Part shown: positions 131 through 29,349 of the stretch, piece by piece
Layout: each line of letters begins with the position of its first letter
Numbering within the stretch: position 1 is the stretch's first letter
From: Ensifer sesbaniae
Lineage (GTDB): Bacteria > Pseudomonadota > Alphaproteobacteria > Rhizobiales > Rhizobiaceae
DNA: 64,000 nucleotides
Direction: 5' to 3'
Assembly (NCBI RefSeq): GCF_013283665.1
Contig: NZ_JABEKU010000001.1
Span: forward strand, 124,001 to 188,000
Position numbers and translations under genes: made by a program
Notes under the pieces: generated by a model
What the model saw: the letters and a program-made list of their open reading frames with translations, nothing else
Database searches by the model: none
Told to the model about the DNA's origin: nothing

Positions 131-144
131 TTGATGGCAATCAA
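131..144. promoter_or_regulatory. FixK/anaerobox (TTGATGGCAATCAA)
   Basis: This is an exact TTGAY-N4-RTCAA match. It sits 64 bp upstream of the start at 66, a distance that fits class II activation by a CRP/FNR-family protein such as FixK (centre near -41). Confidence 0.8.
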
Positions 145-153
145 AGATCATCC

Positions 154-2838
154 TCAGGAGCTCAGCAGAAGCGTCGCAATTCTCAAGCGAGTATCGAAGG
201 GATGATCGGCGATGGAGCAGCCGAACTCCCGGCACAGTTTCAGCATCTTGGTGTTTTCCGCCAGAACAATCCCCTCCATCCGCTTCAGGCCGTCGGCCGT
301 CGCGTAGTCTTTTAACTGCGAAAACAGCGCCCAGCCGATTCCGAGCCCTTGCAAGTCGGTCCGCACCAGCAAGCCGTATTCGGCGCACTCGTGGTCGGGA
401 TCGGCGGAAAACCGAGCGATCCCTGCGAGCTCTCCAGTGCCGAAATCCAGCGCGACGAACGCCAGCTCACGCTCGTAGTCTATCTGCGTGAGCCTGATGA
501 GCATCTGGTCCGAGATGCTCTTGCTCGCCGCCAGGAAGCGCATTCGAATGTCGTCGCTAGAGGTCCTCTCCAGGAAGGCAGGGTAGAGAGCGGCGTCCGT
601 CGGCTTGATCGGGCGAATGCGGTAGGTTCTTCCTTTCAAGACGACGTTCTTCTGCCAGTCGCGCGGATAGGGGCGGATCGCGAGGGCTGGGTTGGGGGCT
701 GGACATTCGACCGATTTGGGATCGAACCCGATCCTGGCATCGAGTGCAATAACGCCTTGCGCATCGGCAAGGAGCGGATTGATGTCCATCGAAACGATGC
801 AGGGAAGGTCGATTATCATTTGTGAAATGGCGAGCAGTGCCCTTCGAATTGCCGACCGGTTTGCCGGCGGCTCGTCACGGAAGCCAGCGAGAAGCTTGCC
901 TATGCGCGTGCGCTCGATCAGATCGCCTGCGAGATCCTCATCGAGGGGCGGTAACTCGATCGCGCTGTCGGCAAGGATCTCGACCGCGACCCCTCCAGAT
1001 CCGAACAGGATGAAGGGACCGAACACGGGATCGCGGTCGATGCCGAGGATCAGCTCTCGACCATGTTCGCGTTTGATCATCGGCTGAACAGCGAACCCAT
1101 CGATGACGGCTGCGGATCTTTTCGACTTCAGCTGTGCAGAAATGCGCTCTGCGGCCCGCCGCGCGTCCAAGGGCGAGGTGATGTCGAGAGCCACGCCCCC
1201 GACATCCGACTTATGGGTGATCGTGCTGGACACGAGCTTGACGGCGATCGCTGGTGCTTCGCGCAGCATGTCGGTCGCGACCGCCTCCACTTCGTCAAAG
1301 GACTTCGCAAGAATTGTCTGCGGTACGGGAATTCCATAGGCTGCGATGGCTGCTTTTGCTTCGAGCTCGGTCAACCATTGACGCTTTTCGGTAGCGACCT
1401 GGCGGAAGATCGCCTGAACCGCTTTCCGGTCGTAGGAGATACCTTCGACCGGGTTCTCCGGGACGCGCAACAACGTTTGGTGAGCTCTTGACCAATTGCG
1501 CAGACAAGAAGCCGCGAGCGCGGCGTCGGCGGGCGTATCGAAGCTTGCCAGTCCGGCCTCCTGCAGGACGCGGCGCCCGTCGCGGGCCGTGTGCCCTCCC
1601 AGCCAACACGTGAGGGTTGGTTTGGTCGAAATCACACCGGACTGGCTGAGCCCGGCAACAGCGCGGGCGGCATCGACAGGGGAAGCCAGACCCGTGGGGC
1701 AATTCATGATGATGAGGAGGTCTGTCTCTGGCGCCTGAGCAACCACCTCGACTGCCGCCCTGTAGCGCTCGGGGGATGCGTCGCCGATGATATCGATGGG
1801 GTTGGCACGTGACCAGGTCGCAGGCAGGAGCCGATCAAGAGCCTGGATTGTCTGATCGGAAAATTCGGCGAGTTCGCACCCGAGATCCATGAGCCGGTCG
1901 ACAGCGAGTACGCCCGCTCCTCCGCCATTCGTAATAATCGAAACGCGGCTTCTGCCGAGCGGCGCAAAGCGTCCTATCGTTTCTGCTGCATCGAACAAGT
2001 CGCCCAGATCATAAATCCGCAAGATTCCCGCCCGCCTAAAGGCTGCGTCGGTAACTCGATCGCCTCCACATAGCGCACCTGTATGAGTTGCTGCCGCTTT
2101 AGCCGCCTCGGGATGTCGGCCGGATTTGATGGCAACAATTGGCTTTAGACGTGCCGCGGCGCGTGCGGCCGAAAGGAACTTGCGAGGATTGGGAATTGCT
2201 TCGAGATAAAGAACGATCGCCCGGGTTCCTGGATCGGTCGCGAGGAGGTCGATGAAGTCGCCGGCGTCCACATCGGTCATGTCACCCAGAGAGATGACTT
2301 TGGAGAAGCCGACATTGTTCTCGACGGCCCAGTCGATCAACGCTGTCGCGATCGCCCCTGATTGCGACAGCAACGCAATGTCGCCGGGCGAAGGAAGCAA
2401 GTGAGCGAAGCTCGCATTGAGCCGTGCAGGCGGAATGATCATGCCGACGGTGTTGGGACCAATAATGCGAAGGAGGAAGGGCTTTGCTGCATCCAGCATG
2501 GCCTGCTTGAGGCCACTGTCCTCGCCAAGCCCGGCGGTGATCACCACTGCTGTTCGGGTGCCGTGTAGCCCGAGCGCATGCACGAGCTCGGGCACCGTCC
2601 TTGGCGGCGTGACGATGATAGCGAGGTCGGGAACGCCGGGAATGTCCGCAACACGAGCAAAACAACGAAGTCCCGCGATCTTTTCATATTTGGGATTGAC
2701 GGGCCAAATTTGACCCGGGAACCCGCCCTCCAGCACGTTGTTCATGACAACACGCCCCAGCGAGCCGGGCCGTTTCGAGGCTCCGATGATGACGAGCGAT
2801 GAAGGGTTGATGGCATGGTGAAGGTTGCGAATCGTCAT
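154..2838 (-). CDS. Acyl-CoA synthetase (NDP-forming)/GNAT fusion, Pat-like protein acetyltransferase
   Basis: The 894-residue protein has an N-terminal CoA-binding Rossmann domain (about 5-130, with VIIGASKRPGSLG), succinyl-CoA-ligase-like domains (about 140-450, with THTGALCGGD and ITNGGGAG), an ATP-grasp domain (about 480-700) and a C-terminal GNAT domain (about 725-870, acetyl-CoA loop LQGLGIGWAL). This is the layout and length of bacterial PatZ/YfiQ, which acetylates lysines such as that of acetyl-CoA synthetase. The start at 2838 is chosen over one 66 bases upstream because GGAG precedes it and homology begins there. No FixK box was found upstream. It could retain acyl-CoA ligase activity or be a pure acetyltransferase; sequence alone does not decide. 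Carbon-flux control under low oxygen is an inference from context. Confidence 0.85.
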   Translation of the reverse strand: MTIRNLHHAINPSSLVIIGASKRPGSLGRVVMNNVLEGGFPGQIWPVNPKYEKIAGLRCFARVADIPGVPDLAIIVTPPRTVPELVHALGLHGTRTAVVITAGLGEDSGLKQAMLDAAKPFLLRIIGPNTVGMIIPPARLNASFAHLLPSPGDIALLSQSGAIATALIDWAVENNVGFSKVISLGDMTDVDAGDFIDLLATDPGTRAIVLYLEAIPNPRKFLSAARAAARLKPIVAIKSGRHPEAAKAAATHTGALCGGDRVTDAAFRRAGILRIYDLGDLFDAAETIGRFAPLGRSRVSIITNGGGAGVLAVDRLMDLGCELAEFSDQTIQALDRLLPATWSRANPIDIIGDASPERYRAAVEVVAQAPETDLLIIMNCPTGLASPVDAARAVAGLSQSGVISTKPTLTCWLGGHTARDGRRVLQEAGLASFDTPADAALAASCLRNWSRAHQTLLRVPENPVEGISYDRKAVQAIFRQVATEKRQWLTELEAKAAIAAYGIPVPQTILAKSFDEVEAVATDMLREAPAIAVKLVSSTITHKSDVGGVALDITSPLDARRAAERISAQLKSKRSAAVIDGFAVQPMIKREHGRELILGIDRDPVFGPFILFGSGGVAVEILADSAIELPPLDEDLAGDLIERTRIGKLLAGFRDEPPANRSAIRRALLAISQMIIDLPCIVSMDINPLLADAQGVIALDARIGFDPKSVECPAPNPALAIRPYPRDWQKNVVLKGRTYRIRPIKPTDAALYPAFLERTSSDDIRMRFLAASKSISDQMLIRLTQIDYERELAFVALDFGTGELAGIARFSADPDHECAEYGLLVRTDLQGLGIGWALFSQLKDYATADGLKRMEGIVLAENTKMLKLCREFGCSIADHPFDTRLRIATLLLSS

Positions 2839-2946
2839 GGTGGCGATCTCCAATCTCCGCCTATCGGAGATACCCGGACTGTGTTTGGCATGCACTCGAT
2901 GCACCGCAGTTCAGCGGGGGGCCGGCGCGCGATCAAGGCGACCGCG

Positions 2947-4839
2947 TCAATCGAGCAGTTCGCGCAGGCGCTTTGCGAGTTTTCTCGTCGTATAGGGTTT
3001 CAGCAGCCACGAAGCGCCTTCGGGAAGCTTTTCTTCGGTGAGGCTCGGGGCTGCATAGCCCGACGTTACGAGTATCTTCATTCCAGGGCGGAGTCTGTGA
3101 ACGTGCTGCGCGAGCTCGTTACCGGTCATCCCGCCAGGCATGACCATGTCGGTGAACACAAGAGAAACCTCCGGGTGGTCGGCGAGAAGCCGAAGGGCTT
3201 CAGTGCCAGTCTCGGCCTCGACAACCCCATAGCCGGCGTCCAAGAGCCGCGCGACCACAATGCGGCGGACGCGGGCGTCGTCTTCGACGACGAGAATGGT
3301 CTCGCGTCCTTGTGGTACGGGCTCGGGTGCAGGATCCTTCGGCTCGCCTGTCTCGTCGGTCTGTAATTTTTCCTTCGCCGCCGGCAGGAAGAGCCGTACG
3401 CTCGTGCCGCGGTCCGGTTCGCTATAGAGCTGTACATGGCCGCCGGACTGCTTGACGAAGCCATAGACCATGCTGAGACCGAGCCCGCTTCCCGCTCCAG
3501 TGGGCTTGGTCGTAAAAAAGGGCTCAAACGCGCGGCGTCTGACATCGTCGGACATACCGACACCGGTATCGCTGACGGTGACGAGGACATAGCGCCCCAT
3601 TCGCACATCCGGATACATGAGGGCATAATCCTGGTCCAGGTTTGCCTTCGAGACCTCGATCGTGAGCCGCCCGCCCGCCCGCATCGCATCGCGCGCATTC
3701 AATGCGAGGTTCAAAAGCGCGTTCTGAAACTGTGCGACATCAACCAGAACGACGTTGTCGGAGCCACGAACCAGTGTCGACAACTCCACTGTTTCGCCGA
3801 GCGTTCGACCCAGGAGGTTCGCGAAGGTGCCGATTAGTCCGCCGACGTCTACGAGTTTCGGAGCAAGGGGCTGGCGTCGGCCAAAGGCAAGCAGTTGCGC
3901 CGTGAGCTTTGCGCCGTCATCCGCTGCGGCCTGTGCCTCTTGCAGAAGATGCCTGAGGTTCTGATCCTCGAGGCGAGCCTCGATCATTTCGAGGTTGCCG
4001 ATGATGACAGTCAGCAGATTGTTGAAGTCGTGCGCCAGCCCACCGGTGAGTTGCCCGACGGCCTCCATCTTCTGTGCCTGTCGCAGTTCCTCATCAATGC
4101 GTTGACGGCTGGTCAGATCCCGAATGAAGCCGGTAAAGATCCGACCTTCGGCGGATCGGGCTTCTCCGACGGACAGTTCCATGGGGAAGGTTGTGCCGTC
4201 CTTGCGCCTGCCAGTCACAACTCGCCCTATTCCAATGATCCGCCGCTCCCCCGTGCGCAGGTAATTTGCGAGATAGCGATCATGCGCCTCGCGGTCAGGA
4301 GACGGCATCAGAATCTTCACGTTCGACCCGCGGACCTCATTCTCCGCAAAGCCGAAGAGCCGTTCCGCCGCCGCGCTGAAAGAGGTGATGAGCCCCATCT
4401 CGTCAATCACCACCATTGCTTCCGGCACGGTGTCGAGGATAGACCTAAGATGGGATTCTCTTGAAACGAGGTCGACCTGGGCGTGTTTCAAATTGGTGAT
4501 ATCGCTGTCAAGCTGTACGATAAGATCGCTTTCACCATTTAGAAGACCGACCCAGAGGCTTGAAACGAAGACCTTGCTTCCATCCTTGCGTTTTTGCGCG
4601 AGTTCGCCGGACCATGACCCGTGTCGTTCAATATGCTGATGGATATCTTTGACTGGTTCGGGAAATGTGGTGGCAAGCAGATGGTGAACGACTTCACCTT
4701 GCGCTTCAGCCCGTGGCCAACCGTAAAGTCGCTCGCAGCCTTTGCTCCAGTGACTGATCCTTCCGCTGGTCTCATGCACGATCAGGTTCGCGTCCTTGAG
4801 GAGACCAACGATTGTCCCGACCCTCGTTTGTGTCATCAT
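2947..4839 (-). CDS. fixL: Hybrid FixL-type heme-PAS sensor histidine kinase with C-terminal receiver
   Basis: From the ATG at 4839 the protein has 630 residues: a first PAS (about 10-120), a second PAS (about 130-245), a dimerisation/H-box domain ([11 protein letters not shown], His270), an HATPase domain (N-box NARD, then DTGVGM and GSGLGLSMV) and a receiver (about 513-630, phospho-acceptor Asp564 in FTDMVMPG). The second PAS is clearly FixL-like: the proximal heme His is present (AHDRYL, His186) and an Arg 20 residues later (IIGIGR, Arg206) matches the ligand-discriminating Arg220 of Bradyrhizobium FixL. The equivalent of FixL Arg206 is Asn. A start at 4920 would overlap fixK by 68 bases and extend past recognisable PAS sequence. 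The protein lacks the transmembrane segments of S. meliloti FixL, so it should be a soluble oxygen sensor that signals to the FxkR-like regulator encoded nearby. Confidence 0.9.
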
Positions 4840-4852
4840 CACCGCCACGTTC

Positions 4853-5593
4853 TCAGGCGAAACCGGCTCGTCTTCCCCCGTTGGACATCGGAGCCGAACG
4901 AAAATCGCAACCGTCGCCATCCGCGATCGATTGAAGCATATGCCTTTTCAAGATTATGATCGAGCGCCGGTCGGGAGCAACGATGATACCCTTGCTCGCG
5001 AATTTCGTTATGGTGCGAGATACCGTCTCGATGGTCATATTCAAATAGTCGGCAATATCAAGCCGGGTCATTGGAAGATCGACGAAGGCACTTGGTTCGG
5101 CGTCTCTGTCGTTCGCCATAAGAAGCAGAAAATTCGCAACCTTCTCGTCGGCACTGCGGCGTGACAACAACACCGCCTGGTCCTGGGCTGCAGTCATTTC
5201 GTCGCAAAGCTTGGAAAAGAGCTGTTGTCGAAGGTGCGGCTGGAGCGCCACCTCGTCTTCAAAACGACGACGAGGATATCGACGCAGCCTGACTTCAGTT
5301 ATCGCTTCGACCGTGTAGAGGTAACGGTCCTTGAGAGAGACGCCCAAGAGATCACCGGGATGCAGAAACCCCACGATGACCCTGCGGCCATCGGCAAGCA
5401 GGCGCAATGCGCGCAGCATGCCGCCTTCAACCTGAAACACATATTTGGCATCGTCACCTTGCCAGAAAAGCGCTTGGCCTGGCGCAGCCTCGATGACGGG
5501 TTGAAGACTGAAGACGGATGATAGATCCGGTGGAGCGAGGGAACATCCCAGTGTTCCGAGACCGTCCTGCATAGCAACTGATTGAAGGGTCAT
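4853..5593 (-). CDS. fixK: CRP/FNR-family transcription activator, FixK type
   Basis: The 246-residue protein has an N-terminal cyclic-nucleotide-binding-like beta roll (about 30-130) and a C-terminal winged helix whose recognition helix contains IETVSRTI, the E-x-x-S-R pattern that reads TTGAT half-sites in the FNR/FixK group. It lacks the N-terminal cysteine cluster of FNR, so it is oxygen-blind and depends on upstream kinase signalling, as in FixK. The start has a GGAGGATG ribosome-binding site. It lies directly upstream of the hybrid fixL on the same strand (13 bp gap) and divergent from the OmpR-type regulator gene, with a K-box-like repeat in the shared promoter region. Thirteen FixK-type boxes nearby are its probable targets. 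Confidence 0.88.
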
Positions 5594-5683: not shown

Positions 5684-5699
5684 TGTGACGGAATGTAAC
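5684..5699 (-). promoter_or_regulatory. K-box-like direct repeat (probable FxkR site)
   Basis: Read on the minus strand toward fixK the site is GTTACA-N4-GTCACA, two six-base direct repeats ten bases apart, as expected for an OmpR/PhoB-type dimer. It lies about 90 bp upstream of the fixK start and 18 bp before the fxkR-like start. From memory, the K-box of Rhizobium etli fixK promoters is a similar direct repeat with a 4-bp spacer; the exact published consensus should be checked. Confidence 0.65.
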
Positions 5700-5717: not shown

Positions 5718-6458
5718 ATGGCGAACGCTCGAAACGAGCCGGACCTCGTGCTTGTCGTGGATGATGATCCACGTATAAGGCAGATGTTGTCACGCTATTT
5801 CGAAGGGGAAGGCTACCGGGTAAGCCTCGCTGGCGATGGTCGGGAAATGCGCAGCAGGCTCGAGAAAACCCATGTGGATATCGTTTTGCTCGATCTGGGT
5901 CTTCCGGGAGAAGACGGGCTGTCGCTGGCCCGCGAACTTCGTGCCCATTCCGACATTCCCATTATCATGCTGACCGGCCGGGACGATGTGGTTGATCGTG
6001 TGGTTGGCCTTGAAATCGGCGCCGATGACTATATCACGAAGCCCTTTCACCTTCGCGAAGTCCTCGCACGGGTGAGGGGTGCGCTTCGCCGTCGGCGTCC
6101 TCTTGCCGCGGTGGCTCCGGAAGTGCAAACGAGCGAGACCTTTTGTTTCGAAGGGTTGCGTCTCGACGTCGCTTGTCGTCGGTTGACATCTAAGGACGGC
6201 CGCGAAATCGCCTTGACGACGGCCGAGTTCGATATGCTCTGCACTCTTGTGAGACATGCCGGCCGTGTCCTCAAACGAGACGTATTGATGGACCTGACCC
6301 GCGGCAGATCACTGGAGGCCTACGACCGCGTGATCGACGCCCAGATCGCGAGATTGCGCCGCAAGGTCGAAAGGGACCCGCGCCGTCCGGAGCTGATCAA
6401 ATCCGTCCGCGGAGTGGGCTATGTCTTCAGCGCACGGACGGTGAAGCAGGACGCTTAG
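5718..6458 (+). CDS. OmpR/PhoB-type response regulator, FxkR-like
   Basis: The 246-residue protein has a receiver domain (about 10-120; acidic pocket VVDDDP, phospho-acceptor Asp59 in IVLLDLGLPG, and ITKPF with the conserved Lys) and a winged-helix output domain (about 145-240, ending in the GVGYVF motif). The start at 5718 follows GGGGCAGG; an in-frame codon 75 bases upstream would pass through the K-box-like repeat. Its position divergent to fixK, beside a hybrid FixL that lacks a FixJ partner, matches the R. etli hFixL-FxkR-FixK arrangement in which FxkR rather than FixJ activates fixK. There is no NarL-type HTH and no fixJ in the window. FxkR identity is inferred from class and context. 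Confidence 0.8.
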   Translation: MANARNEPDLVLVVDDDPRIRQMLSRYFEGEGYRVSLAGDGREMRSRLEKTHVDIVLLDLGLPGEDGLSLARELRAHSDIPIIMLTGRDDVVDRVVGLEIGADDYITKPFHLREVLARVRGALRRRRPLAAVAPEVQTSETFCFEGLRLDVACRRLTSKDGREIALTTAEFDMLCTLVRHAGRVLKRDVLMDLTRGRSLEAYDRVIDAQIARLRRKVERDPRRPELIKSVRGVGYVFSARTVKQDA

Positions 6459-7074: not shown

Positions 7075-7088
7075 TTGACGCGCGTCAA
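7075..7088. promoter_or_regulatory. FixK/anaerobox (TTGACGCGCGTCAA)
   Basis: This is a perfect palindrome matching TTGAY-N4-RTCAA. It lies 63 bp before the OTC-like start. A class II start site (about 41 bp from the centre) would fall near 7123, with TTTATT at 7111-7116 as a -10-like element. Confidence 0.82.
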
Positions 7089-7151: not shown

Positions 7152-8147
7152 ATGTCGATCGATCTGCGCGGTCGCAGCGTGCTCACCCTCGATGATCTGA
7201 CTGCCGAGGAAATCCACTACTTGCTTCGGCTCGTCGCTGACCTCAAGGAAAAGAAGCGGGCCGGGACCGAGGTCAAGCAGTTGAGTACCAGGAATGTCGC
7301 GCTTCTGTGCGAGCGAGATTCGATCCACGCGCATGCCGCCTTTGAAGTCGCGGCCCACGACCAAGGTGCGAATGTTACGTTGATTGGACCGTCAACCGGT
7401 CACACGCGATATCGGGAGTCGGTCAGGGACACGGCTCGTTTCCTCGGCCGACTGTACGACGCAATTGGATATATCGGGCATTCCCAAGCCACTGCGGAAG
7501 AGCTCGCCAAATGGAGTTGTGTGCCTGTTTACAATGGGATGACGGACGAGTCACACCCTACGCAGGCTTTGGCCGACCTTGTGACAATGCAGCAATGCAG
7601 CGACAAGCCTCTCGACGAAATGATCGTGGCCTTCCTTGGGGATGGACGCAGCAACGTCGCAAGATCACTGGCAGTGGCCGCGTCAAGGCTTGGCATCGAC
7701 CTTCGCATCGTATCGCCGCAAAATTTCTGGCCGGAGATCCCCTTCGTCGAACGTGTGACGTCGACGGCAAGGGACAATGGCGGGCAGATAACCGTGCTGG
7801 AGCATGTCGGTACCGGCATTCTCGGCGCTGACTTTATTTACACGGCTCCCTGGTTTGCCGAGGGAGACGTCCGTTGGGCGGAGCGGGTGAGGCACCTTGC
7901 ACCTTTTGCGGTCAGAGAGAACGTAATGGAAGCAACTTACAACCCGCACACGAAGCTGATGCACAGCCTACCCGCCTGGCACTGGCGGGAAGATGAGGTC
8001 CGGGCGCGCATCGCCAAGCGCTTCGGCGTCGAGTGCATGGAGGTGTGTGATGGCGTCTTTGAGTCCAAATCCTCAATCGTGTTCGATCAGGCCGAAAATC
8101 GCATGCCGGCAATCAAGGCGCTTCTCGTGGCCACGCTTGCCGGTTGA
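7152..8147 (+). CDS. Ornithine carbamoyltransferase-like protein lacking key catalytic motifs
   Basis: The 331-residue protein matches the length and overall sequence of anabolic/catabolic OTC (N-terminal LRGRSVLTL, FEVAAHDQGA, HPTQALADL, C-terminal ESKSSIVFDQAENRM). The carbamoyl-phosphate loop S-T-R-T-R is replaced by S57-I-H-A-H61. The Arg of the Y-R-G motif is Ile (YIG, residue 108). The ornithine loop D-x-x-x-S-M-G is altered to APWFAEG (232-238), and H-C-L-P is HSLP (271-274). HPTQ (135-138) is intact. Normal transcarbamylation is therefore unlikely. It may be a pseudoenzyme, or a transcarbamylase or phosphate-binding protein with another substrate. No arcA or arcC lies nearby. The FixK box 63 bp upstream makes it a low-oxygen gene. 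The start has an AAGGAG site. Confidence 0.82.
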   Translation: MSIDLRGRSVLTLDDLTAEEIHYLLRLVADLKEKKRAGTEVKQLSTRNVALLCERDSIHAHAAFEVAAHDQGANVTLIGPSTGHTRYRESVRDTARFLGRLYDAIGYIGHSQATAEELAKWSCVPVYNGMTDESHPTQALADLVTMQQCSDKPLDEMIVAFLGDGRSNVARSLAVAASRLGIDLRIVSPQNFWPEIPFVERVTSTARDNGGQITVLEHVGTGILGADFIYTAPWFAEGDVRWAERVRHLAPFAVRENVMEATYNPHTKLMHSLPAWHWREDEVRARIAKRFGVECMEVCDGVFESKSSIVFDQAENRMPAIKALLVATLAG

Positions 8148-8247
8148 GCGCGGCGGTCCGGCCCTTCCGCGAGCGCCCAGGTTATACTCGAAATGACGCG
8201 GTCCCCCGGGAATGCCTGCCCGACGATAAGAAATGGAGTTTGTGCAG

Positions 8248-9843
8248 ATGGTCACTCAACCCCTCATTCGATTTCACGGCGCCGCAGGCACAGTTACCGG
8301 CTCATGCCAACTGATTGAGCTGGGGGCGACGAGAATTCTGGTTGACTGTGGGCTGTTCCAAGGGTCCAAGACGGAGAAGGAACTTAACTATCGCCCGTTC
8401 CCCTTCGATGTTGACAGCATCGACGCAGTGATCCTGACACATGCCCATATCGACCACTCCGGTCTGCTCCCGAAGCTCGTCAAACTTGGCTACGAGGGGC
8501 CGATCTTCGCGACGCCCGCGACGACTGACCTGTGTTCCGTGATGCTGCCGGACTCTGCCCATATCCAGGAGAGTGAGGTCGACCAACTCAATCGCCGCAA
8601 CCTCAGGCGCGGACGCGGCACCGTGACGCCGATATACACTGCCCGAGACGCAGCGGTGGCGGTCACGCTATTCAGGCAGGTGCGCCTTGGTGTGTGGGAG
8701 AGAGCGGCCGACGGGGTGCGCTTTCGGTTCTGGAATGCGGGCCACCTGCTCGGTTCCGCTTCGGTAGAAGTCGAGCTCGGCACGTCCCCCACTCCCCTCA
8801 GGGTACTTTTTTCGGGTGATATCGGCCCACATCACAAACTTCTTCAATATGACGCGGCCGCACCGACGGGCTGGGATTATGTCGTATGCGAAAGCACCTA
8901 CGGCGATGTCGAGCGGGAAGACGCCAGCGACGAAACCAGGCGGCGCATTTTGCGCTCGGAAGTGACGGAAGCCACCCATCCTGCGGGCGCTTTGATCATT
9001 CCGTCCTTTGCGGTGGAGCGAACGCAGGAACTCCTCACTGATCTTGTCCACCTGATGGACACCGGTAGAATCGCGACTTGTCCGATTATCATCGACTCGC
9101 CTTTGGCGACCCGCGCGAGCGAGATCTTTCGCAGGCACGCCAAGGAACTCGAGAATGGTGACCTGCTCGTCAAGGCCCTGCAAGCCAAGCACGTGCGCTT
9201 TACCGAGACGCCCGAGCAATCGAAAGCGATCGATTTCACCAAGGGATTTCACATTGTCATTGCCGCCAGCGGAATGTGCGAGGCTGGTCGTATAAGGCAT
9301 CGCTTGAAGAATTGGCTCTGGCGGGACGAGGGTACGGTGCTCCTTGTCGGTTACCAAGCCGCCGGCACCTTGGGACGAATTCTTGCAGACGGGGCCTCGG
9401 TGGTGCGCATTCAAGGCGAGGACATTCGCGTGCGCGCACGCATCAGGAAGCTGGACATCTATAGCGGGCATGCCGATGGCAGAGAGCTTGCAGAATGGGT
9501 GCGGTCCCGCGAGCCAATCGGTGCCGGCGTATTCTTGGTGCACGGTGAAGATGCGGCTCTGGATGGGTTGAGGCAACGGCTTCAGACATTCCTGCCGGAG
9601 GACAAGGTGGTTCGTCCGCGTTTGGACGCAGCGTTCCGTTTAGACGTGAAGGGAGCGGTCGAAGTATCCGAAGGCGTCTCCCCACCACGTATCGATCCAC
9701 TTCGCGCAGGGCGGATGGACTGGAACAACGACTTGCAATCACTGGTACTCGACTTGCAAGCGGAACTGGCCAAGGCAGCCGACGACAAAGCACGAGGCGT
9801 GGTCATTCGCCGCGTGCGGCGGGCACTGAATGCGGACGCTTGA
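8248..9843 (+). CDS. Metallo-beta-lactamase/beta-CASP nuclease (RNA exonuclease family)
   Basis: The 531-residue protein has the N-terminal metallo-beta-lactamase fold with LVDCGLFQG and the metal-binding THAHIDHSG motif, then GHLLGSA and FSGDIG, a beta-CASP insertion, and C-terminal motifs including IAASGMCEAGRIRHRL, YQAAGTLGR and SGHADGRELAEW. These are features of Ysh1/CPSF-like bacterial RNA-processing exonucleases with two zinc ions in the active site. The start at 8248 is preferred because GGAG lies nine bases upstream; an ATG at 8233 is possible and would add five residues. No FixK box lies directly upstream; it follows the OTC-like gene on the same strand after about 100 bp, so read-through is possible. 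RNA turnover in hypoxia is an inference. Confidence 0.88.
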   Translation: MVTQPLIRFHGAAGTVTGSCQLIELGATRILVDCGLFQGSKTEKELNYRPFPFDVDSIDAVILTHAHIDHSGLLPKLVKLGYEGPIFATPATTDLCSVMLPDSAHIQESEVDQLNRRNLRRGRGTVTPIYTARDAAVAVTLFRQVRLGVWERAADGVRFRFWNAGHLLGSASVEVELGTSPTPLRVLFSGDIGPHHKLLQYDAAAPTGWDYVVCESTYGDVEREDASDETRRRILRSEVTEATHPAGALIIPSFAVERTQELLTDLVHLMDTGRIATCPIIIDSPLATRASEIFRRHAKELENGDLLVKALQAKHVRFTETPEQSKAIDFTKGFHIVIAASGMCEAGRIRHRLKNWLWRDEGTVLLVGYQAAGTLGRILADGASVVRIQGEDIRVRARIRKLDIYSGHADGRELAEWVRSREPIGAGVFLVHGEDAALDGLRQRLQTFLPEDKVVRPRLDAAFRLDVKGAVEVSEGVSPPRIDPLRAGRMDWNNDLQSLVLDLQAELAKAADDKARGVVIRRVRRALNADA

Positions 9844-10458: not shown

Positions 10459-10472
10459 TTGATGCGCGTCAA
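10459..10472. promoter_or_regulatory. FixK/anaerobox (TTGATGCGCGTCAA)
   Basis: This is an exact consensus match 52 bp upstream of the protease start at 10525, the usual spacing for class II activation. The site overlaps a spurious in-frame TTG codon, which helps to reject the longer start. Confidence 0.82.
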
Positions 10473-17964: not shown

Positions 17965-18771
17965 ATGATTTACAATACGATACTGGTAAACCTGAGTATG
18001 CACGAAAGTGTCGCGCGGCAGCTGAAATTTGCGCGTGACGTCGCATCGCGCTTCGAGGCAACTCTCGTCGGATTCGCCGCCGGCGACATTCGCACCATTA
18101 CGGCGCCGCCTCCAGGGGTCTTCATGGATGACGAGTTCATGCGCCTCGAAACGGTCGACATCGAGCGCCGCCTTGACTTGCTCAGAAGCGAATTTGAAGC
18201 GGAAGGGGGAGGCACCGGCACCCTACGAACAACCGTAGGCGATCCGACGAAGGAGCTTGCCGCGGCAGCACGGATGGCGGACCTCATCATTGTGAGCACA
18301 CCACAGGACGGTGGTGAGCATCTTGATCTCGGTGAGCTGATTCATTCGGCCGGCCGACCTATCCTCATCCCGAGGGACGATCTCGAGCCGCTTGTGGCGC
18401 ACAAGATCGTCGTTGCCTGGAAGGATACGCGGGAGGCGAGACGAGCGGTTGCGGATGCGATGCCATTCCTTGTTCATGCGCGTGAAGTCCTCATCGCCAC
18501 GGTCGAGGAGCACGATAGGCAGCACGCGATGGAATCGGCCAGTGACGTTGTTCGCCACCTGATCAGCCATGGGGCAAGGGCGCGCGGAGAGATCTTCAAG
18601 CGCCTAGAGCCCGGAGACGGCGAGACGCTGATCGGCATCGCCAAGCAATTCGGGGCGGATCTGGTCGTATCGGGGGCATATGGCCATACCAGACTTCGCG
18701 AATGGCTCCTGGGAGGGGTTACTCGCACACTGCTTGGTGCGGGGCCTCTCAATCGGTTGATGTCATCCTGA
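17965..18771 (+). CDS. Universal stress protein with two tandem Usp domains
   Basis: The 268-residue protein has two Usp halves. The second carries VVSGAYGHTRLREWLLGGVTRTLL, close to the ATP-binding glycine loop. It starts with MIYNTILVNLSMHES and is divergent from groEL, with its own FixK box. The kinase-like gene at 18832 follows after 60 bp on the same strand and is probably co-transcribed. Usp proteins bind nucleotides and aid survival in growth arrest; the specific role is unknown. Confidence 0.88.
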   Translation: MIYNTILVNLSMHESVARQLKFARDVASRFEATLVGFAAGDIRTITAPPPGVFMDDEFMRLETVDIERRLDLLRSEFEAEGGGTGTLRTTVGDPTKELAAAARMADLIIVSTPQDGGEHLDLGELIHSAGRPILIPRDDLEPLVAHKIVVAWKDTREARRAVADAMPFLVHAREVLIATVEEHDRQHAMESASDVVRHLISHGARARGEIFKRLEPGDGETLIGIAKQFGADLVVSGAYGHTRLREWLLGGVTRTLLGAGPLNRLMSS

Positions 18772-20833: not shown

Positions 20834-20847
20834 TTGACGGCGATCAA
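20834..20847. promoter_or_regulatory. FixK/anaerobox (TTGACGGCGATCAA)
   Basis: This exact match is only 34 bp upstream of the prs ATG. Minus-strand TACGAT at 20814-20809 is a plausible -10. The geometry puts the start site on or next to the ATG. Confidence 0.8.
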
Positions 20848-21864: not shown

Positions 21865-22284
21865 CTAAAGGTGACCTTTCTCATAGTCCTGACAGGACTC
21901 GCCGAACTGGGACATCGCCTCCTCCAGGTAATCCGCTAGCAGCGGCGTGCCGAGGAGGTAGGCGGCGGTGCGCTCATTGTGGGCTTCAGCCGCATCGGCG
22001 CGGATACTCTCCCAGTCATCCACGTTGCCGTCACCACGGCCCAGCCAGCACAGGGCAACGAGGTCTATCTGCTCGTCCTCGTTCATGTCAGAGATGATGC
22101 TCGCCAGTTCGGACTCGACGGGGTCGTCGGGCTGATCCTCGAGAACGGAGATCATGCTGTCGTCGGTGGCGTTCGATGCGGGATTGAGCTCCGAGGCGAC
22201 ATCCTTGACGTCGAACTCGCGTGCCTTGACGATGAGATAGCAGACGGTCTCCGGCGCGAGGGATAAGTTCCAGGTTCCACTCAT
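21865..22284 (-). CDS. DUF3775 family protein
   Basis: The 139-residue acidic protein starts MSGTWNLSLAPETVCYLI with a GGAG site. It shows the DUF3775 pattern (VKAREFDVKD, EDEQIDLVALCWLGRGD, HNERTAAYLLGTPLLADYLEEAMSQFG). The family function is unknown. The start at 22284 is chosen over a much longer frame that would pass through both FixK boxes. It is divergent from the APH/AAA kinase gene, and the box at 22429-22442 could drive it with a leader of about 110 bases. Confidence 0.75.
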   Translation of the reverse strand: MSGTWNLSLAPETVCYLIVKAREFDVKDVASELNPASNATDDSMISVLEDQPDDPVESELASIISDMNEDEQIDLVALCWLGRGDGNVDDWESIRADAAEAHNERTAAYLLGTPLLADYLEEAMSQFGESCQDYEKGHL

Positions 22285-22428: not shown

Positions 22429-22442
22429 TTGATGCGTGTCAA
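22429..22442. promoter_or_regulatory. FixK/anaerobox (TTGATGCGTGTCAA)
   Basis: This exact match lies in the divergent promoter region between the DUF3775 and APH/AAA genes, nearer to DUF3775 (144 bp from its start). Confidence 0.78.
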
Positions 22443-22498: not shown

Positions 22499-22512
22499 TT
22501 GATCCGCATCAA
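22499..22512. promoter_or_regulatory. FixK/anaerobox (TTGATCCGCATCAA)
   Basis: This exact match, with perfect TTGAT/ATCAA arms, is 124 bp upstream of the APH/AAA start at 22637 and implies a leader of roughly 90 bases. It is the second box of the divergent pair, 70 bp centre to centre from the first. Confidence 0.8.
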
Positions 22513-22636: not shown

Positions 22637-24157
22637 ATGCTCGTCCAAGACCAGACTGCTACAGTGACATTTCTAAGCGACCGGAAAACGCATGGATGCG
22701 AGAGGGTCGAGCATATCCAAACTCACATCTCCGAGATATTCCTCGCCGGCAATCGAGCCTTCAAGATGAAGCGCGCGGTGAAGCTTCCCTATGTGGACTT
22801 TTCGACGCCGGAGCTACGGCTGAGAGCCTGCGAAAAGGAGGTCGAGCTGAACAAGGCGACTGCGCCTGGCCTGTACCTCGGCGTCCGGCGGATCGCGCGC
22901 GACAAGGACGGGCAACTGGCCTTCGGTGAGAGTGAGCTTGTCGATGCGGTCGTCGAGATGGTCCGTTTCGACCAGGGCGCACTGTTGGATCGCATGGCGG
23001 TCGAAGGCCGGCTCGATGCGACACTGATGACGAAGGCGGCGCGCATGATTGCGAGCTACCACCACTCGGCCCCCGTCATTCATCAGGGTTCGGGATCGGC
23101 AAACATTGCGGGGGTTCTCGCCATCAATGCCGCCGGCTTTGCGACGAGCCGGGTTTTCGGCGATGTCGAACTTACAGAGATTACGCGCCGCTTCGAGCAA
23201 ACGCTCGCCCAGTTCAAGGGTCTCGTCGATACCCGCGAGGCGGCCGGCAAGGTTCGGCGATGCCATGGCGATTTGCACTTGCGCAACATCTGCCTCCTCG
23301 ACGGTGAACCCCGATTGTTCGATTGCATCGAGTTCAACGATCAGATTGCCACTGTCGACACGCTCTATGACCTGGCGTTTCTGCTGATGGACCTCTGGCA
23401 CCGTGGTTTCCCTGAACTCGCCAATCTGGTCATGAACCGGTATCTCGACCAAGCCGATGACGAGGACGGTTTCGTGCTTCTGCCATTCTTCATGGCCATA
23501 AGGGCCGCCGTCAGGGCCCATGTCATTGCCACCCAGGTTGCCGAAGGTGGAAGCCGCCCGGAGCAACTTGTCGCCGAGGCGCGATCCTACTTTCAGCTCG
23601 CCCGCTCGCTGCTCGCCGCGGTTCCCGCGCGCCTGATCGTGATCGGCGGATTCAGCGGCTCCGGCAAGACGACCGTGGCAGATGCGCTGGCTGCGTGGCT
23701 CGGCGCCCCTCCTGGCGCTCGCATCATTGAAAGCGACCGCATCAGGAAGGCGCTGCATGGGGTTCCGGCCGAGGTACACCTCGGTGCAGATGCCTATCGT
23801 TCATGCGTATCCGATACCGTCTATTCCGAGATGGCCCGCCGCAGCCTGGCTCTATTGAAGGCCGGGGGATCTGTTGTCGCGGATGCGGTGTTCGACCGGT
23901 TGGCCAACCGCCAGCTCATCGAGGGTGCCGCCAAGAGCGCGGGAGTCCAATGCAAAGCCGTCTGGTTGGATGCTGGCACGTCCATCTTGCGAAAGCGCGT
24001 TGCCAATAGAGATGGGGGGCCTTCCGATGCGGACCTGAGCGTCCTGGCACGGCAGATTTCCGGTGAGAGGGAGGGGCTTACTTGGCGCATGATCAATGCA
24101 GAGCAGGGGGTTGACAAAATCGTTCAAGAGATCCTCGAAACTGAAAAGGCTGCATGA
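22637..24157 (+). CDS. Bifunctional APH-like kinase/AAA P-loop kinase
   Basis: The 506-residue protein joins an aminoglycoside phosphotransferase-like domain (about 25-320; catalytic HGDLHLRNICLL, then FDCIEFNDQ) to a C-terminal P-loop kinase domain (about 335-500; Walker A IVIGGFSGSGKTT, then ESDRIRKAL). This fusion is found in Proteobacteria and is often next to usp genes; its substrate is not known. The start MLVQDQTATV follows a GCGAGGC site, and a longer frame through the FixK boxes is rejected. Its first half is a paralog of the protein encoded at 18832. Confidence 0.82.
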   Translation: MLVQDQTATVTFLSDRKTHGCERVEHIQTHISEIFLAGNRAFKMKRAVKLPYVDFSTPELRLRACEKEVELNKATAPGLYLGVRRIARDKDGQLAFGESELVDAVVEMVRFDQGALLDRMAVEGRLDATLMTKAARMIASYHHSAPVIHQGSGSANIAGVLAINAAGFATSRVFGDVELTEITRRFEQTLAQFKGLVDTREAAGKVRRCHGDLHLRNICLLDGEPRLFDCIEFNDQIATVDTLYDLAFLLMDLWHRGFPELANLVMNRYLDQADDEDGFVLLPFFMAIRAAVRAHVIATQVAEGGSRPEQLVAEARSYFQLARSLLAAVPARLIVIGGFSGSGKTTVADALAAWLGAPPGARIIESDRIRKALHGVPAEVHLGADAYRSCVSDTVYSEMARRSLALLKAGGSVVADAVFDRLANRQLIEGAAKSAGVQCKAVWLDAGTSILRKRVANRDGGPSDADLSVLARQISGEREGLTWRMINAEQGVDKIVQEILETEKAA

Positions 24158-24240: not shown

Positions 24241-24747
24241 TTAAGCGCGTCTACGATTAGGTACCCTAAAGCACGACGTCGCATTCGTTGGAATAAACTT
24301 TCCTTTTGCCAGAACCCGGTTTGAATAACGTGGATTTCCAGTAACCTCAGGTCCAAGCCAATCTGGCAACGGGGGAGTATCGTTGCCACCGTCGAGTTCA
24401 ACTTCCGCAACTACGAGGCCACGATGGTGGCCGGAATAGACATCAACTTCCCAGACGTAACCCTGATGTTCCACCTCAAAACGTGTTTTTTGGAGGACAC
24501 CTCGCGCGTGCTCGAACATTTCCTTCGCGTCCGTATAGGGAATTTCGTATTCGTACTCTTCGCGTCGATTGCGACCGGTTCGGATCTTGACTGTCAACGT
24601 GGCGCGACAGCCATCTATCGTCCGGATGCGTACGGTTTCGCCCTTCGTCGCCACGAGATATGCTTGCTGCAGGACGGAACCTTCAGAGGCATGCTGTCGC
24701 CAGCGATCGTCAATGACCAAAAATTTTCTCTCTATCTCTGCCGCCAT
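24241..24747 (-). CDS. CYTH-domain protein (inorganic triphosphatase/adenylate-cyclase-like fold)
   Basis: The 168-residue protein starts with the diagnostic AAEIERKFLV (ExExK) motif and has alternating charged strands (ETVRIRTIDG, ATLTVKIRTG, REEYEYEIPY, VVAEVELDGG) that line the CYTH triphosphate tunnel. Single-domain bacterial members usually hydrolyse inorganic triphosphate using magnesium. The start has a GAGGCAG site. It converges on the APH/AAA kinase gene (83 bp gap), and the FixK box at 24905 is 157 bp upstream. Its substrate in this cell is unknown. Confidence 0.85.
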   Translation of the reverse strand: MAAEIERKFLVIDDRWRQHASEGSVLQQAYLVATKGETVRIRTIDGCRATLTVKIRTGRNRREEYEYEIPYTDAKEMFEHARGVLQKTRFEVEHQGYVWEVDVYSGHHRGLVVAEVELDGGNDTPPLPDWLGPEVTGNPRYSNRVLAKGKFIPTNATSCFRVPNRRRA

Positions 24748-24904: not shown

Positions 24905-24918
24905 TTGATCCGCGTCAA
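24905..24918. promoter_or_regulatory. FixK/anaerobox (TTGATCCGCGTCAA)
   Basis: This exact match lies between the CYTH gene (minus) and the MscS-like fragment (plus). It could act in either direction. Confidence 0.78.
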
Positions 24919-25049
24919 TGTCCGGCTGTAGATTTAGAAATATCTTTTTTAGCGGTATTTGCAGCGTGGCCGCCGGAACTGTGAGTTGGCAGCTCGTCGC
25001 TGCGACCAGAGACGTCCAGAATGGCACCGCATTTCGACCCGTCGAGAAC

Positions 25050-25457
25050 ATGAGACGAGACTGGGTGATCGACAAAATGACGATCAACGTCACCTACGAT
25101 TCCGACATCGAATTGGCGCGCGAGCTCATAAAGAAGATCGGCCAGGAATTGGCCGCGGACCCAGAGTTCGCGGCGGACACGCTGCAGCCCTTGAGAATGC
25201 AGGGCGTCGATAGCTTCGGGGATTTTGCGATCGTCCTGAGGCACAAACTCATGACCAAGCCCAACGCGCAGTTTGCCATCAAGCGGCGCGCCTTCATGAT
25301 GATCAAGAAGGCCTTCGATGAAAATGGCATCAAGATCGTCGTGCCGACGGTCCATGTGGAAGGAAGTGGCGAATCTGCGGCTGCGGCCGCCCATCAGATC
25401 CAGCAGTCGGCGAAGGCGGCACAAATCGCCGAAGCGGCGGGTCAAGCCGTGGCTTGA
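25050..25457 (+). pseudogene. C-terminal cytoplasmic domain of an MscS-type channel (truncated gene)
   Basis: The coding stretch begins MRRDWVIDKMTINVTYDSD, which is the segment just after the pore helices in MscS-family channels, and continues with DTLQPLRMQGVDSFGDFAIVL and FDENGIKIVVPTVHVE. All transmembrane and pore-lining parts are missing; the 130 bases upstream show no channel homology although a frame is open from 24918. The 135-residue product would be soluble. No good ribosome-binding site precedes the ATG. It is most simply a 5'-deleted gene brought behind a FixK box. An expressed soluble domain is possible but unsupported. Confidence 0.65.
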
Positions 25458-25529: not shown

Positions 25530-26807
25530 ATGAGTTGGAACAGGTTGTATGCGCTCAAGAGCTACGTGCGTGCCTCCTTGTGGATCATCCCGTTTTTTGC
25601 GCTCATCGTGCAGCAGGCCTTTTTTCGCGCGGTTCTTACTTCGGAGAAATGGATAGGGTGGATCCCGCCCTGGCCGTTAGGGGCCGATGGCACGGTTGCT
25701 GCGATGCAGGCGATCATAAGCCTGGCGCTTTCGTTTCTCGTCTTCACGTTCGGCTCACTGCTTGTGGCGATACAAATAGCAAGCGGACAGCTTACGCCCC
25801 GGATCATCGCGACCACGCTGCTGCGAGATAATGTCATCCGGTTTACCGTGGGCTTGTTCATCTTTACGCTGCTGTTCGCCATCGGCGCGATAAGTCGCGT
25901 GAACGCGTCGGCTCCGGCCTCCATAGTGTGGATCTCGGCGGCCCTTGGCGTCCTCTCGCTGGCAGCATTTCTTTACTTGATTGATTATTCAGCTCGTTTG
26001 CTACGTCCCGTCAGCATCATCCATAGTGTCGCCGAGCAGGGGTTCACCGTCATCGAAAGCGTTTATCCTGAGCGCTGGAAGGAGACTGTGGGGCAACTTC
26101 AGACGCGTGACGCGCTTGGAAAGCCGGACGAGGTCGTCTTGCATGCCGGTTCATCAGATATCATTCTTGCCGTGGACGTGAAGTCCCTGCTGGCCCAAGC
26201 AACCCGGGCAGACGGTGTAGTTGAGCTTGCAGCACGCGTCGGCGACTTCGTGGCATATGGCCAGCCCCTGTTCCGGCTATACGGTGGTGCCGCGAAAATT
26301 CCTGCCAGCGAACTTTGCAACAGCGTTGCGTTTGGGCGTGAGCGAACTATCGAGCAGGATCCAACTTTCGCTCTCAGGGTCATTGTCGATATTGCCACGA
26401 AGGCACTCTCCAAAGCGATCAACGACGCGACGACTGCAGTGCTGGCCGTCGACCAACTGCATCGCTTACTGCGCAGCGTTGGCGGACGCGATCTACGCAA
26501 TGAGTATCTCTGCGATGGGGGCGGACGGCTTCGTGTGGTGTATCCAACACCGGACTGGGAAGACTTCGTACAACTCACCTGTCGCGAGATTAGGATCTAC
26601 GGAGTAGAGAATCTTCAGATCGCAAGGAGGCTTCGCGCCATGATCGACAATCTCGAAAATGTGTTGCCCGAGAGCCGGAAACAGGCGTTGCAGGTTGAGC
26701 GCGATCTACTCGACCGAATGATCGACCGCGCCTACCTATTGCCGGAGGACGCTGCTTTGGCACGCATTGCCGACACGCAAGGACTGGGTGGCCCAGCGGA
26801 GACGTGA
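25530..26807 (+). CDS. DUF2254 family membrane protein
   Basis: The 425-residue protein has hydrophobic segments at about 15-32, 60-85, 100-122 and 130-150, followed by a soluble C-terminal domain with ALRVIVDIATKALSKAINDATTAV, a DUF2254 hallmark. Function is unknown. The start MSWNRLYALKSYVRASLW is preceded by AGGAGGG at 12 bases and AAGAG closer in. It follows the MscS-like fragment by 72 bp on the same strand and may share its FixK promoter. The loss of a mechanosensitive channel just upstream is worth noting beside another membrane protein of unknown role. Confidence 0.8.
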   Translation: MSWNRLYALKSYVRASLWIIPFFALIVQQAFFRAVLTSEKWIGWIPPWPLGADGTVAAMQAIISLALSFLVFTFGSLLVAIQIASGQLTPRIIATTLLRDNVIRFTVGLFIFTLLFAIGAISRVNASAPASIVWISAALGVLSLAAFLYLIDYSARLLRPVSIIHSVAEQGFTVIESVYPERWKETVGQLQTRDALGKPDEVVLHAGSSDIILAVDVKSLLAQATRADGVVELAARVGDFVAYGQPLFRLYGGAAKIPASELCNSVAFGRERTIEQDPTFALRVIVDIATKALSKAINDATTAVLAVDQLHRLLRSVGGRDLRNEYLCDGGGRLRVVYPTPDWEDFVQLTCREIRIYGVENLQIARRLRAMIDNLENVLPESRKQALQVERDLLDRMIDRAYLLPEDAALARIADTQGLGGPAET

Positions 26808-27737: not shown

Positions 27738-28247
27738 TCAACGCACGACCGTGACAGAGCAGCCGGCATGCTCCACGATCTTCTGCGAGACACTCCCAAG
27801 CACCATGCCCGCTAATCGTCCCAGCCCTCGGCTGCCCACAACGATCATGTCGGCGCCAATCTCCTCTGCCACGGCGAGAATGGTCTCAGCATAATCGCCG
27901 GGTTCGACCCGCGTGTGCACGTCGCCAGCCCCGATGGACCGTGCGTCTTCGGCAGCATTCTCCGCGATAACCGCGCCCAAGACGGATGCCGCCTCTCCAA
28001 GGTCGCCTTGCACACTCTGGAACAAGTCATTCGCCGAGACGACCGTCCGCTCCTGGACGATTGACCTGCGCCGTAGGAGAGGATCGGCGCGGGCGAGCCG
28101 GGTTGCTTCCTTGGCTCTCACACCGTGCAGGATGACGTGAAGGATCGTAATGCGTGCGTCCAAACTCTTGGCGATAGTCGCGGCGATCTCAACGGCTTGT
28201 CGGGCTTTATCGGATCCGTCGGTCGCCACAAGGATATGTTTGATCAT
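27738..28247 (-). CDS. Universal stress protein, single Usp domain
   Basis: The 169-residue protein starts MIKHILVATDGSDKARQAVE, with the ATP-binding C-terminal loop VVGSRGLGRLAGMVLGSVSQ (G-2x-G-9x-GS), so nucleotide binding is expected. The start at 28247 has GGAGGAAG, and the FixK box lies 49 bp upstream. It is the only single-domain Usp in the window, and MarC follows it. Confidence 0.9.
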   Translation of the reverse strand: MIKHILVATDGSDKARQAVEIAATIAKSLDARITILHVILHGVRAKEATRLARADPLLRRRSIVQERTVVSANDLFQSVQGDLGEAASVLGAVIAENAAEDARSIGAGDVHTRVEPGDYAETILAVAEEIGADMIVVGSRGLGRLAGMVLGSVSQKIVEHAGCSVTVVR

Positions 28248-28296: not shown

Positions 28297-28310
28297 TTGA
28301 TTCCCGTCAA
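28297..28310. promoter_or_regulatory. FixK/anaerobox (TTGATTCCCGTCAA)
   Basis: This exact match is 49 bp upstream of the usp start at 28247, in the class II position. Confidence 0.82.
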
Positions 28311-29157: not shown

Positions 29158-29277
29158 GCCCTTCGCTCCACCCGGAGTTGATATTGATTGAATTGGCCTT
29201 ATCTTTTGGCAACTGCTCAAGCGCCGAAACGCCGGCGAAACCAACGCGCACGCTATCGAGCCCCGGCATCCGTGTCG

Positions 29278-29291
29278 TTGACGCCGATCAA
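29278..29291. promoter_or_regulatory. FixK/anaerobox (TTGACGCCGATCAA)
   Basis: This exact match is 120 bp upstream of the phasin-like start and is one of two boxes in this divergent intergenic region. Confidence 0.78.
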
Positions 29292-29335
29292 TGCTTTTCC
29301 ATTTGGTCGCGATTGGAACTCTTTGGGGTCCTTTA

Positions 29336-29349
29336 TTGACCGGCGTCAA
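29336..29349. promoter_or_regulatory. FixK/anaerobox (TTGACCGGCGTCAA)
   Basis: This exact match is 59 bp upstream of the CBS-BON start. TATGTT at 29372-29377 is well placed as a -10 for a class II promoter. Confidence 0.83.

Follow-up and report, generated by a model that had tools for sequence, protein, structure and literature searches.

The stretch analysed here, 64,000 bp of Ensifer sesbaniae DNA (the window, C1:124001-188000, where C1 is contig NZ_JABEKU010000001.1 of a genome of 6,897,201 bases in 5 contigs), carries in its left half thirteen exact copies of the anaerobox TTGAYNNNNRTCAA (TTGAY-N4-RTCAA), the type of site bound by FixK and FNR regulators. Among them lies a regulatory cassette comprising a predicted hybrid FixL kinase (hFixL), a FixK activator, and a response regulator, FxkR. 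The window most probably holds the right part of an accessory low-oxygen regulon island of 113 kilobases (kb) that is driven by this cassette. The cassette and the sites are listed below in window positions; the anaeroboxes are palindromic and are given without strand, and distances run to the start of the gene named.

2947..4836, minus strand: hFixL, hybrid kinase with the order PAS, heme-type PAS, HisKA, HATPase, REC (Pfam, structure comparison; the open reading frame extends to 4920, the start being placed at about 4836 by relatives)
4853..5593, minus strand: FixK, Crp/Fnr type (Pfam; closest solved structure FixK2, E value 1.8e-29)
5684..5699, minus strand: K-box GTTACATTCCGTCACA, located between the fixK and fxkR genes and differing from GTTACA-N4-GTTACA by one mismatch
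5718..6458, plus strand: FxkR, OmpR-type response regulator with Response_reg and Trans_reg_C domains (Pfam, NCBIfam; 90-93% identical in three relatives)
131..144: anaerobox TTGATGGCAATCAA, facing left to a universal stress protein (Usp) gene at C1:123233-124066, just beyond the window; 71 bp
7075..7088: anaerobox, promoter of the carbamoyltransferase (OTCase) and metallo-beta-lactamase (MBL) genes, possibly also of 6491-6934 (minus strand); 71 bp
10459..10472: anaerobox, trypsin-like/M50 protease pair; 60 bp
15614..15627: anaerobox, Hsp20-Usp genes; 146 bp
17844..17857: anaerobox, groEL-proximal; 58 bp
17888..17901: anaerobox, Usp-proximal; 70-71 bp (70 in two relatives)
20834..20847: anaerobox, pyrophosphokinase gene; 41 bp
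22429..22442: anaerobox, divergent promoter; pair kept in two relatives
22499..22512: anaerobox, divergent promoter; pair kept in two relatives
24905..24918: anaerobox between CYTH and mechanosensitive-channel genes; 164 bp on the CYTH side, 55 bp on the channel side
28297..28310: anaerobox about 56 bp upstream of the Usp gene 27738..28247; sites at 58 and 114 bp in the S. fredii homologue
29278..29291: anaerobox, distal, CBS-BON gene; 125 bp
29336..29349: anaerobox, proximal, CBS-BON gene; 67 bp

All thirteen sites were recovered at the positions given in the initial annotation, which had described a 29-kb hypoxia regulon island at a density beyond chance. Dinucleotide shuffles of the window contain 0.15 sites on average and 2 at most, with none of 100 reaching 13. 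In the genome-wide scan that the annotation had proposed, 67 exact sites were found (a reversed control pattern gave 5), and 27 of them fall within C1:40516-153349, a span of 113 kb for which base composition predicts 0.15. Site density is 0.24 per kb in this island vs 0.006 per kb elsewhere (40 sites in 6.78 Mb), a roughly 40-fold difference, and a similar density was not seen elsewhere. The annotation was also right that the right 34 kb of the window is empty: no exact site lies past 29349, and the next one listed on the contig, C1:480744, is 327 kb away. Its extent, however, needs correction: the island covers about 113 kb and 27 sites, the left three quarters of it beyond the window. Because three double sites are included, the thirteen window sites mark 10 promoter regions, and the estimate of at least a dozen transcription units holds only when both genes of divergent pairs are counted.

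The sites avoid coding sequence. A simple codon-model gene caller was applied to C1:20001-188000; it skipped FixK because of an overlap, and FixK was added by hand and two short calls there were removed. Twenty-six of the 27 island sites fall outside called genes, even though the caller assigns 85% of C1:40-154 kb to coding sequence. The lone in-gene site (28297 in the window) falls in a doubtful N-terminal extension: the frame encodes a Usp, but its Usp domain begins only at residue 48, and if translation started there the site would lie upstream by about 56 bp. By an independent local codon score, one island site (C1:106837) is coding-like, compared with 11 of the 40 sites elsewhere in the genome. 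The earlier placement of the sites in intergenic DNA or leaders, with spurious frames as the exceptions, is thus supported.

A hexamer resembling a -10 element stands at a fixed distance from many of the boxes. The pattern [TC]ANNNT, starting 33-38 nt from the site start, accompanies 14 of 23 oriented site-gene pairs (35-130 bp apart) vs 11% of 2000 random intergenic positions. When the strict form TANNNT is counted in both orientations, the 27 island sites peak at offsets 35 and 36 (5 and 7, mean 0.37 at other offsets), as do the 33 sites of pSF45436d, a plasmid of S. fredii CCBAU 45436 (7 and 5, mean 0.32). Pooled over 94 sites, among which orthologous sites are non-independent, the counts at these offsets are 14 and 18 vs about 1. 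The 40 sites outside the island also show a peak (4 and 2, mean 0.15), so some of them are evidently genuine too. This spacing places the predicted box centre near -41, the position of a class II activator. Activating anaeroboxes of R. leguminosarum are put at -32 to -34 by the authors' counting in the accessible part of the report (PMC7888657), which we take to refer to the box edge.

The distances from site to gene start are conserved in relatives. Comparison was made with E. adhaerens CTYH.Ch1 (plasmid), Ensifer sp. PDNC004 (plasmid), and E. adhaerens ST2 (20.7 kb only), among which gene coverage varies; many distances differ by no more than a few bp from those in one, two or all three of these relatives, for proteins that are 66-94% identical. 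With our own value first, they are 71/71/72/72 bp for the Usp gene left of the window, 71/71/72/70 for the OTCase gene, 60/60/59/59 for the protease gene, 146/149/149 for hsp20, and 58+102, 58+100, and 58+100 for groEL; the pyrophosphokinase site lies at 41 vs 42 bp in CTYH.Ch1, and the CBS-BON sites at 125+67 vs 127+68 in PDNC004. In the DUF3775/kinase region the site-to-start distances vary, yet the two boxes keep their mutual spacing (70/72/72 bp, our own and two relatives). The CYTH distance is not kept (164 bp vs 104 in CTYH.Ch1). The idea that the 24905 site lacks a channel-side counterpart in CTYH.Ch1 was dropped as an artefact of the short channel gene here: in CTYH.Ch1 a box identical in all 14 letters stands 285 bp before a full-length channel gene. 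Clustering recurs as well: of 20 sites found in 150 kb of CTYH.Ch1, 19 fall within 57 kb.

The regulatory genes at 2947-6458 form a recognizable cassette. The second PAS domain of hFixL aligns with the FixL heme PAS structure 8js5 (E value 8e-46), including a His (AHDRY/RHDSY) and an Arg 20 residues on (IIGIGR), which we take to be the heme-site residues corresponding to H200 and R220 of B. japonicum FixL; a receiver domain lies at the C-terminus (Response_reg, residues 542-652, E value 5.8e-16). The FixK of the window has no N-terminal Cys cluster that could be seen by eye and carries the recognition helix ETVSR. The K-box between fixK and fxkR is perfect at the same place in the orthologous loci L022, L026, and L027. 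With up to two mismatches allowed, 0.71 chance matches are expected in the window, so the weight of this element rests on its position and conservation. A FixLJ-type cassette was considered and rejected, the partner regulator being of OmpR rather than FixJ type. As judged by sequence, the cassette matches the hFixL-FxkR-FixK system of Rhizobium etli and R. leguminosarum (Rlv3841). In the available descriptions of that system (PMC7888657, PMC4999443) the shared features are a hybrid FixL, a non-FixJ FxkR (OmpR-type here), a FixK without Fe-S cysteines, a K-box GTTACA-N4-GTTACA before fixK, and a fixK gene adjoining hfixL. The difference is that the Rlv3841 targets named in those descriptions are fixNOQP, fixGHIS, and fnrN, compared with some two dozen boxed promoters around the regulators in 113 kb.

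The remaining window genes of the island, which include predicted targets, are as follows; assignments are by family scan except where another basis is given.

154..2904, minus strand: acetate/acyl-CoA ligase (ADP-forming type) fused to GNAT (Pfam; NCBIfam below cut-off)
7152..8147, plus strand: ornithine/aspartate carbamoyltransferase (OTCase) family (Pfam)
8233..9843, plus strand: beta-CASP metallo-beta-lactamase RNase-like protein (Pfam, NCBIfam)
10525..11850, plus strand: trypsin-like PDZ (HtrA/Deg-type) protease (Pfam)
11914..13026, plus strand: site-2 (M50) protease with CBS domains (Pfam)
13549..13992, minus strand: 'host attachment'/baeRF family 12 protein
14037..14867, minus strand: universal stress protein
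14947..15474, minus strand: Hsp20
16170..17792, minus strand: GroEL paralogue (also NCBIfam)
17965..18771, plus strand: universal stress protein
19822..20799, minus strand: ribose-phosphate pyrophosphokinase
21865..22284, minus strand: DUF3775 protein
22637..24157, plus strand: APH-like/AAA_33 kinase fusion
24241..24747, minus strand: CYTH domain protein
24966..25457, plus strand: MscS C-terminal domain protein, about 0.5 kb here vs 2 kb in CTYH.Ch1
25530..26807, plus strand: DUF2254 membrane protein
27738..28247, minus strand: universal stress protein (start moved to residue 48 of a longer frame)
29409..30101, plus strand: CBS-BON protein

MarC is also found among the window products by family scan. 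No exact site belongs to the ligase-GNAT gene, whose 3' end adjoins the first site. The gene next to groEL is annotated in CTYH.Ch1 as an ATPase inhibitor, not GroES, and the short MscS-like gene may be a shortened remnant. For 8233-9843, which has a boxed promoter upstream, the best NCBIfam match (below cut-off) is of the type VII CRISPR Cas14/archaeal aCPSF1 type. Left of the window, where genes were named by eye or by homology to annotated relatives with no family scan, the island encodes ABC and RND export systems, a SulP-like transporter, PPK2, parts of pyruvate dehydrogenase, an AMP/thymidine phosphorylase-like protein, P-type ATPases, a CpxP-like protein, phosphoenolpyruvate synthase, a CBS-BON protein, and a phosphofructokinase-like protein. 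Boxes near the phosphorylase-like gene (C1:91701-94189, by eye) and the pyrophosphokinase-like gene at 19822-20799 raise the possibility of a nucleotide-salvage branch. To the right of the island, at 34200-62400, transporter-like operons and amidohydrolase-, aldehyde dehydrogenase-, and glutamine-synthetase-like genes (by eye) were seen, with no exact boxes.

From these data we propose the following scheme. Falling oxygen would take O2 off the heme-PAS hybrid kinase hFixL, which would then phosphorylate FxkR; FxkR would bind the K-box and raise expression of fixK together with hFixL, which lies next to it on the same strand. FixK, having no sensor cluster, would bind TTGAY-N4-RTCAA near -41 and, acting as a class II activator, bring in RNA polymerase at some 22 promoter regions clustered about the fixK gene. 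The predicted products, comprising chaperones (Hsp20, GroEL), Usp, envelope proteases, enzymes of ATP, phosphoribosyl pyrophosphate, and acetyl-CoA metabolism, ion pumps, and CBS/BON proteins, would amount to a programme for survival when energy is poor. Regulator and targets are found side by side, in this strain on the contig with rpoB and in relatives on plasmids. The initial reading of a FixK hypoxia regulon is therefore retained as regards the clustered FixK/FNR-type sites, the FixK cassette inside, and the matching promoter anatomy and conservation, and is modified as regards the 29-kb extent and the single FixK.

Proteins other than this FixK may read the same box. The left part of the island contains a second set, 52 kb to the left (C1:76.4-80.8 kb), with a perfect K-box at C1:76404, a FixK at C1:76509 (59% identical), and an 885-residue FixL-like hybrid kinase at C1:78110 (by eye). 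An FnrN-like protein at C1:2309048 combines an FNR-type cysteine motif with the same ETVSR recognition helix, and further ETVSR-type proteins are encoded at C2:1334821 and C2:1530895. Several proteins could thus recognize the box, and the annotation's attribution of the sites to one nearby FixK was too strong. It is possible, though on balance we think it unlikely, that FnrN, an FNR protein with an Fe-S cluster (here the FnrN-like protein at C1:2309 kb), is the main reader, with the local FixK proteins having a minor or early part. The shared helix and the cysteine motif would suit it, as would two reports: according to the parts accessible, an anaerobox-bearing small heat-shock protein gene of R. 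leguminosarum UPM791 requires FnrN (PMC11784457), and FnrN is critical for symbiosis in Rlv3841 (PMC7888657).

The distribution of boxes in the genus appears to favour FixK over FnrN. Among 16 genomes, this one included, six have a FixK match at an E value threshold of 1e-30, the best matches in the other five being 59-88% identical. The extended box CNTTGAYNNNNRTCAANG is most numerous in these six (22, 18, 18, 15, 10, and 6 copies) compared with the ten without such a match (4, 3, 5, 2, 4, 4, 2, 4, 7, and 2), the two ranges touching at 6 and 7. In the FixK genomes covered whole the boxes are clustered: 44 kb holds 13 of 18 in G001 and 46 kb holds 12 of 15 in G011, with a looser grouping in G023 (7 of 10 in 147 kb). 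One relative, G005, has two FixK matches (C1:946929 and C3:614229, 80% and 85% identity), and its cassette may be duplicated.

Operator detail also bears on the identity of the reader. G at +2 is present in 43 of 54 island half-sites vs 24 of 70 outside (five identical repeats omitted; 27 of 80 with them), and on both halves in 18 of 27 island sites vs 4 of 35 outside. We had considered this G an island-specific extension and dropped the idea: it belongs to the FixK/FnrN consensus TTGANCNNGATCAANG as given in the accessible text of PMC4999443, which argues for genuine boxes and not for a special reader. Position 6 is different. The island prefers G (G:C 33:16) and the other genome boxes C (17:35; Fisher 7e-4), the published consensus having C, which hints at a different reader. 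G:C counts at this position in PDNC004 (20:6), pSF45436d (38:19), and locus L023 (5:0) agree with the island, whereas those in S. meliloti ml21 (7:6) and the Ensifer loci L024 (4:4) and L025 (1:5) do not; the G6/C9 spacer bias hints at a possible local feature and is best taken as a weak lead. Elsewhere in the genome, at C2:1527705-1538289, five identical TTGACAGCTGTCAA palindromes surround repC (C2:1534834) and the Crp/Fnr gene at C2:1530895; with flanking CG, the 14 letters are also present in other genomes of the genus, and they are possibly the partition site of a repABC replicon, not a FixK box.

Published expression data are available for a close counterpart of the island. The conjugative plasmid pSF45436d (201 kb, with repABC and conjugation genes) carries the same cassette, many of the same targets, 33 boxes in 200 kb, and a second Crp/Fnr gene with a perfect K-box. 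On humic material, as described in the accessible text of an RNA-seq study (PMC8552645), 103 of the 203 pSF45436d genes are up at 24 h, a rise that coincides with the turn to stationary phase; ccoO and ccoP are up 21- and 17-fold, and final cell density is more than 3-fold higher. The authors call the special role of the plasmid unclear and suggest stress adaptation, citing an earlier reference. Strain-dependent expression is likewise described as enriched on pSF45436d in the part available of PMC5991415. All ten pSF45436d genes in Table 1 of PMC8552645 have island homologues, and eight have an exact upstream box (58-280 bp), several at the distances seen in the window; of the remaining two, one has a one-mismatch box at 74 bp and the other lies directly behind hsp20.

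These data bear on a second alternative, which we regard as improbable: that the island is a general stress or stationary-phase regulon in which low oxygen is one of several inputs, with redox, nitric oxide, or (p)ppGpp acting through or beside Crp/Fnr proteins. The targets are stress proteins, and the S. fredii rise comes at 24 h, at the turn to stationary phase, on humic material, and with lower rsh, in line with that alternative; set against it, the sensor of the cassette is a heme PAS close to FixL, and ccoO/ccoP rise alongside the plasmid genes (PMC8552645, accessible text). The FixK boxes offer another reading of the plasmid response beside rsh/(p)ppGpp, in which shared boxes together with oxygen shortage in denser cultures would explain why pSF45436d in particular responds. 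A third alternative, in which most of the boxes are relics or chance palindromes left in the intergenic DNA of a region once derived from a plasmid and are not jointly controlled, is highly improbable: the region does look accessory (GC slightly lower, 58.8% vs 61.1% in the right half of the window), but this reading is contradicted by the 0.15 sites expected (in the window by shuffles, in 113 kb by base composition), the fixed -10 spacing, and the conserved distances, and the joint S. fredii rise speaks against it as well.

Several observations weigh against an oxygen-responsive island read by its own FixK. The candidate readers named above, from the second FixK to the FnrN-like and other ETVSR proteins, could share the box; the FixK-bearing genome G003 (6 extended boxes) does not exceed G008 (7), which has no FixK match; and regulator and boxes may occur together simply because a single block was inherited. 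The K-box of the window is imperfect, and in the pSF45436d cassette no K-box with up to one mismatch was found between fixK and the response regulator. Nine of the 23 site-gene pairs have no -10 match at the expected spacing, the contrast is weaker when [TC]ANNNT is sought at 34-37 in either orientation (16 of 27 island sites vs 13 of 40 outside), and some sites could be repressing. The S. fredii study tested humic material, not oxygen; its authors name lower rsh, the (p)ppGpp enzyme, as the hub of the humic effect, and Table 1 is their own selection of stress genes (PMC8552645, accessible text). The key nod/nif/fix symbiosis genes are unchanged there although ccoO/ccoP rose, and the main text contains neither FixK nor the terms 'dissolved oxygen', 'aeration', or 'hypoxi'; that study therefore gives strong support to co-regulation and weaker support to oxygen as the signal.

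The kind of regulon proposed here is already known; the notable features are that it is packaged together with resident sensors and that it can be connected to pSF45436d. Among FixK/FnrN regulons of alphaproteobacteria, the core FixK regulon of Dufour et al. and that of B. diazoefficiens FixK2 use the same box (PMC4999443), and in the portions of the literature available the FixK targets overlap in Hsp20, HlyD/ABC export, CBS, zinc alcohol dehydrogenase, and kinase genes (PMC2908626), the B. diazoefficiens microoxic set including Usp, CBS, and Hsp20 (PMC6515984). In those portions FixK/FnrN regulons are not portrayed as a single block, and the island boxes differ in favouring G at position 6 and C at position 9. 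On pSymA of S. meliloti ml21 a like order is found of Usp, P-type ATPase, BON, acetate-CoA ligase/GNAT, PAS kinase, Crp/Fnr, response regulator, MBL, trypsin-like protease, M50 protease, and Hsp20 genes, with 7 boxes in 41 kb, fewer in the stretch seen, and insertion sequences between. The lxa locus of Burkholderia cenocepacia, likened from descriptions only, is also one low-oxygen locus with Usp, heat shock, BON, and metabolic genes, and an lxa mutant survives anoxia less well; it differs in belonging to another lineage and in having its proposed regulator, BCAM0049, outside the locus by gene number (PMC6127331, PMC3759415, both in part). Among the titles listed in searches of the open-access literature, none describes such a regulon packaged as one accessory block, a result that does not extend to subscription-journal work on the S. 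meliloti FixJ/FixK regulon.

The genomic setting of the island differs from that of its counterparts. The pSF45436d block is on a plasmid, whereas rpoB lies on C1, which places the Ensifer island on the contig of the main chromosome. A 16S search to place C1 gave no matches and was also empty in 5 of 14 control genomes. The same rpoB-bearing 3.7-Mb contig carries repC at C1:2574279, suggesting an integrated or fused replicon, and, given this repC and the accessory flanks, the island may have arrived by plasmid integration. At 90%, the left flank matches 2 of 15 other genus genomes and the right flank 1 of 15; no tRNA was found within C1:20001-188000, and neither the flank searches nor the plasmid matches delimited the ends of the island.

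Regulons are usually viewed as scattered targets of a core regulator. We put forward tentatively, as a rather doubtful but testable extension, that the island is a portable hypoxia-survival regulon, with sensor, relay, activator, and promoters in one block moving between chromosome and conjugative plasmids, and that TTGAYG-NN-CRTCAA ties its boxes to the local FixK, partly insulated from FnrN and the core FixK. If this is so, a soil bacterium that acquired the block would obtain a preassembled programme for surviving low oxygen in a single event. The presence of sensor, activator, and targets together in an accessory block of several rhizobia makes the gain of a whole stress response by one transfer directly testable.

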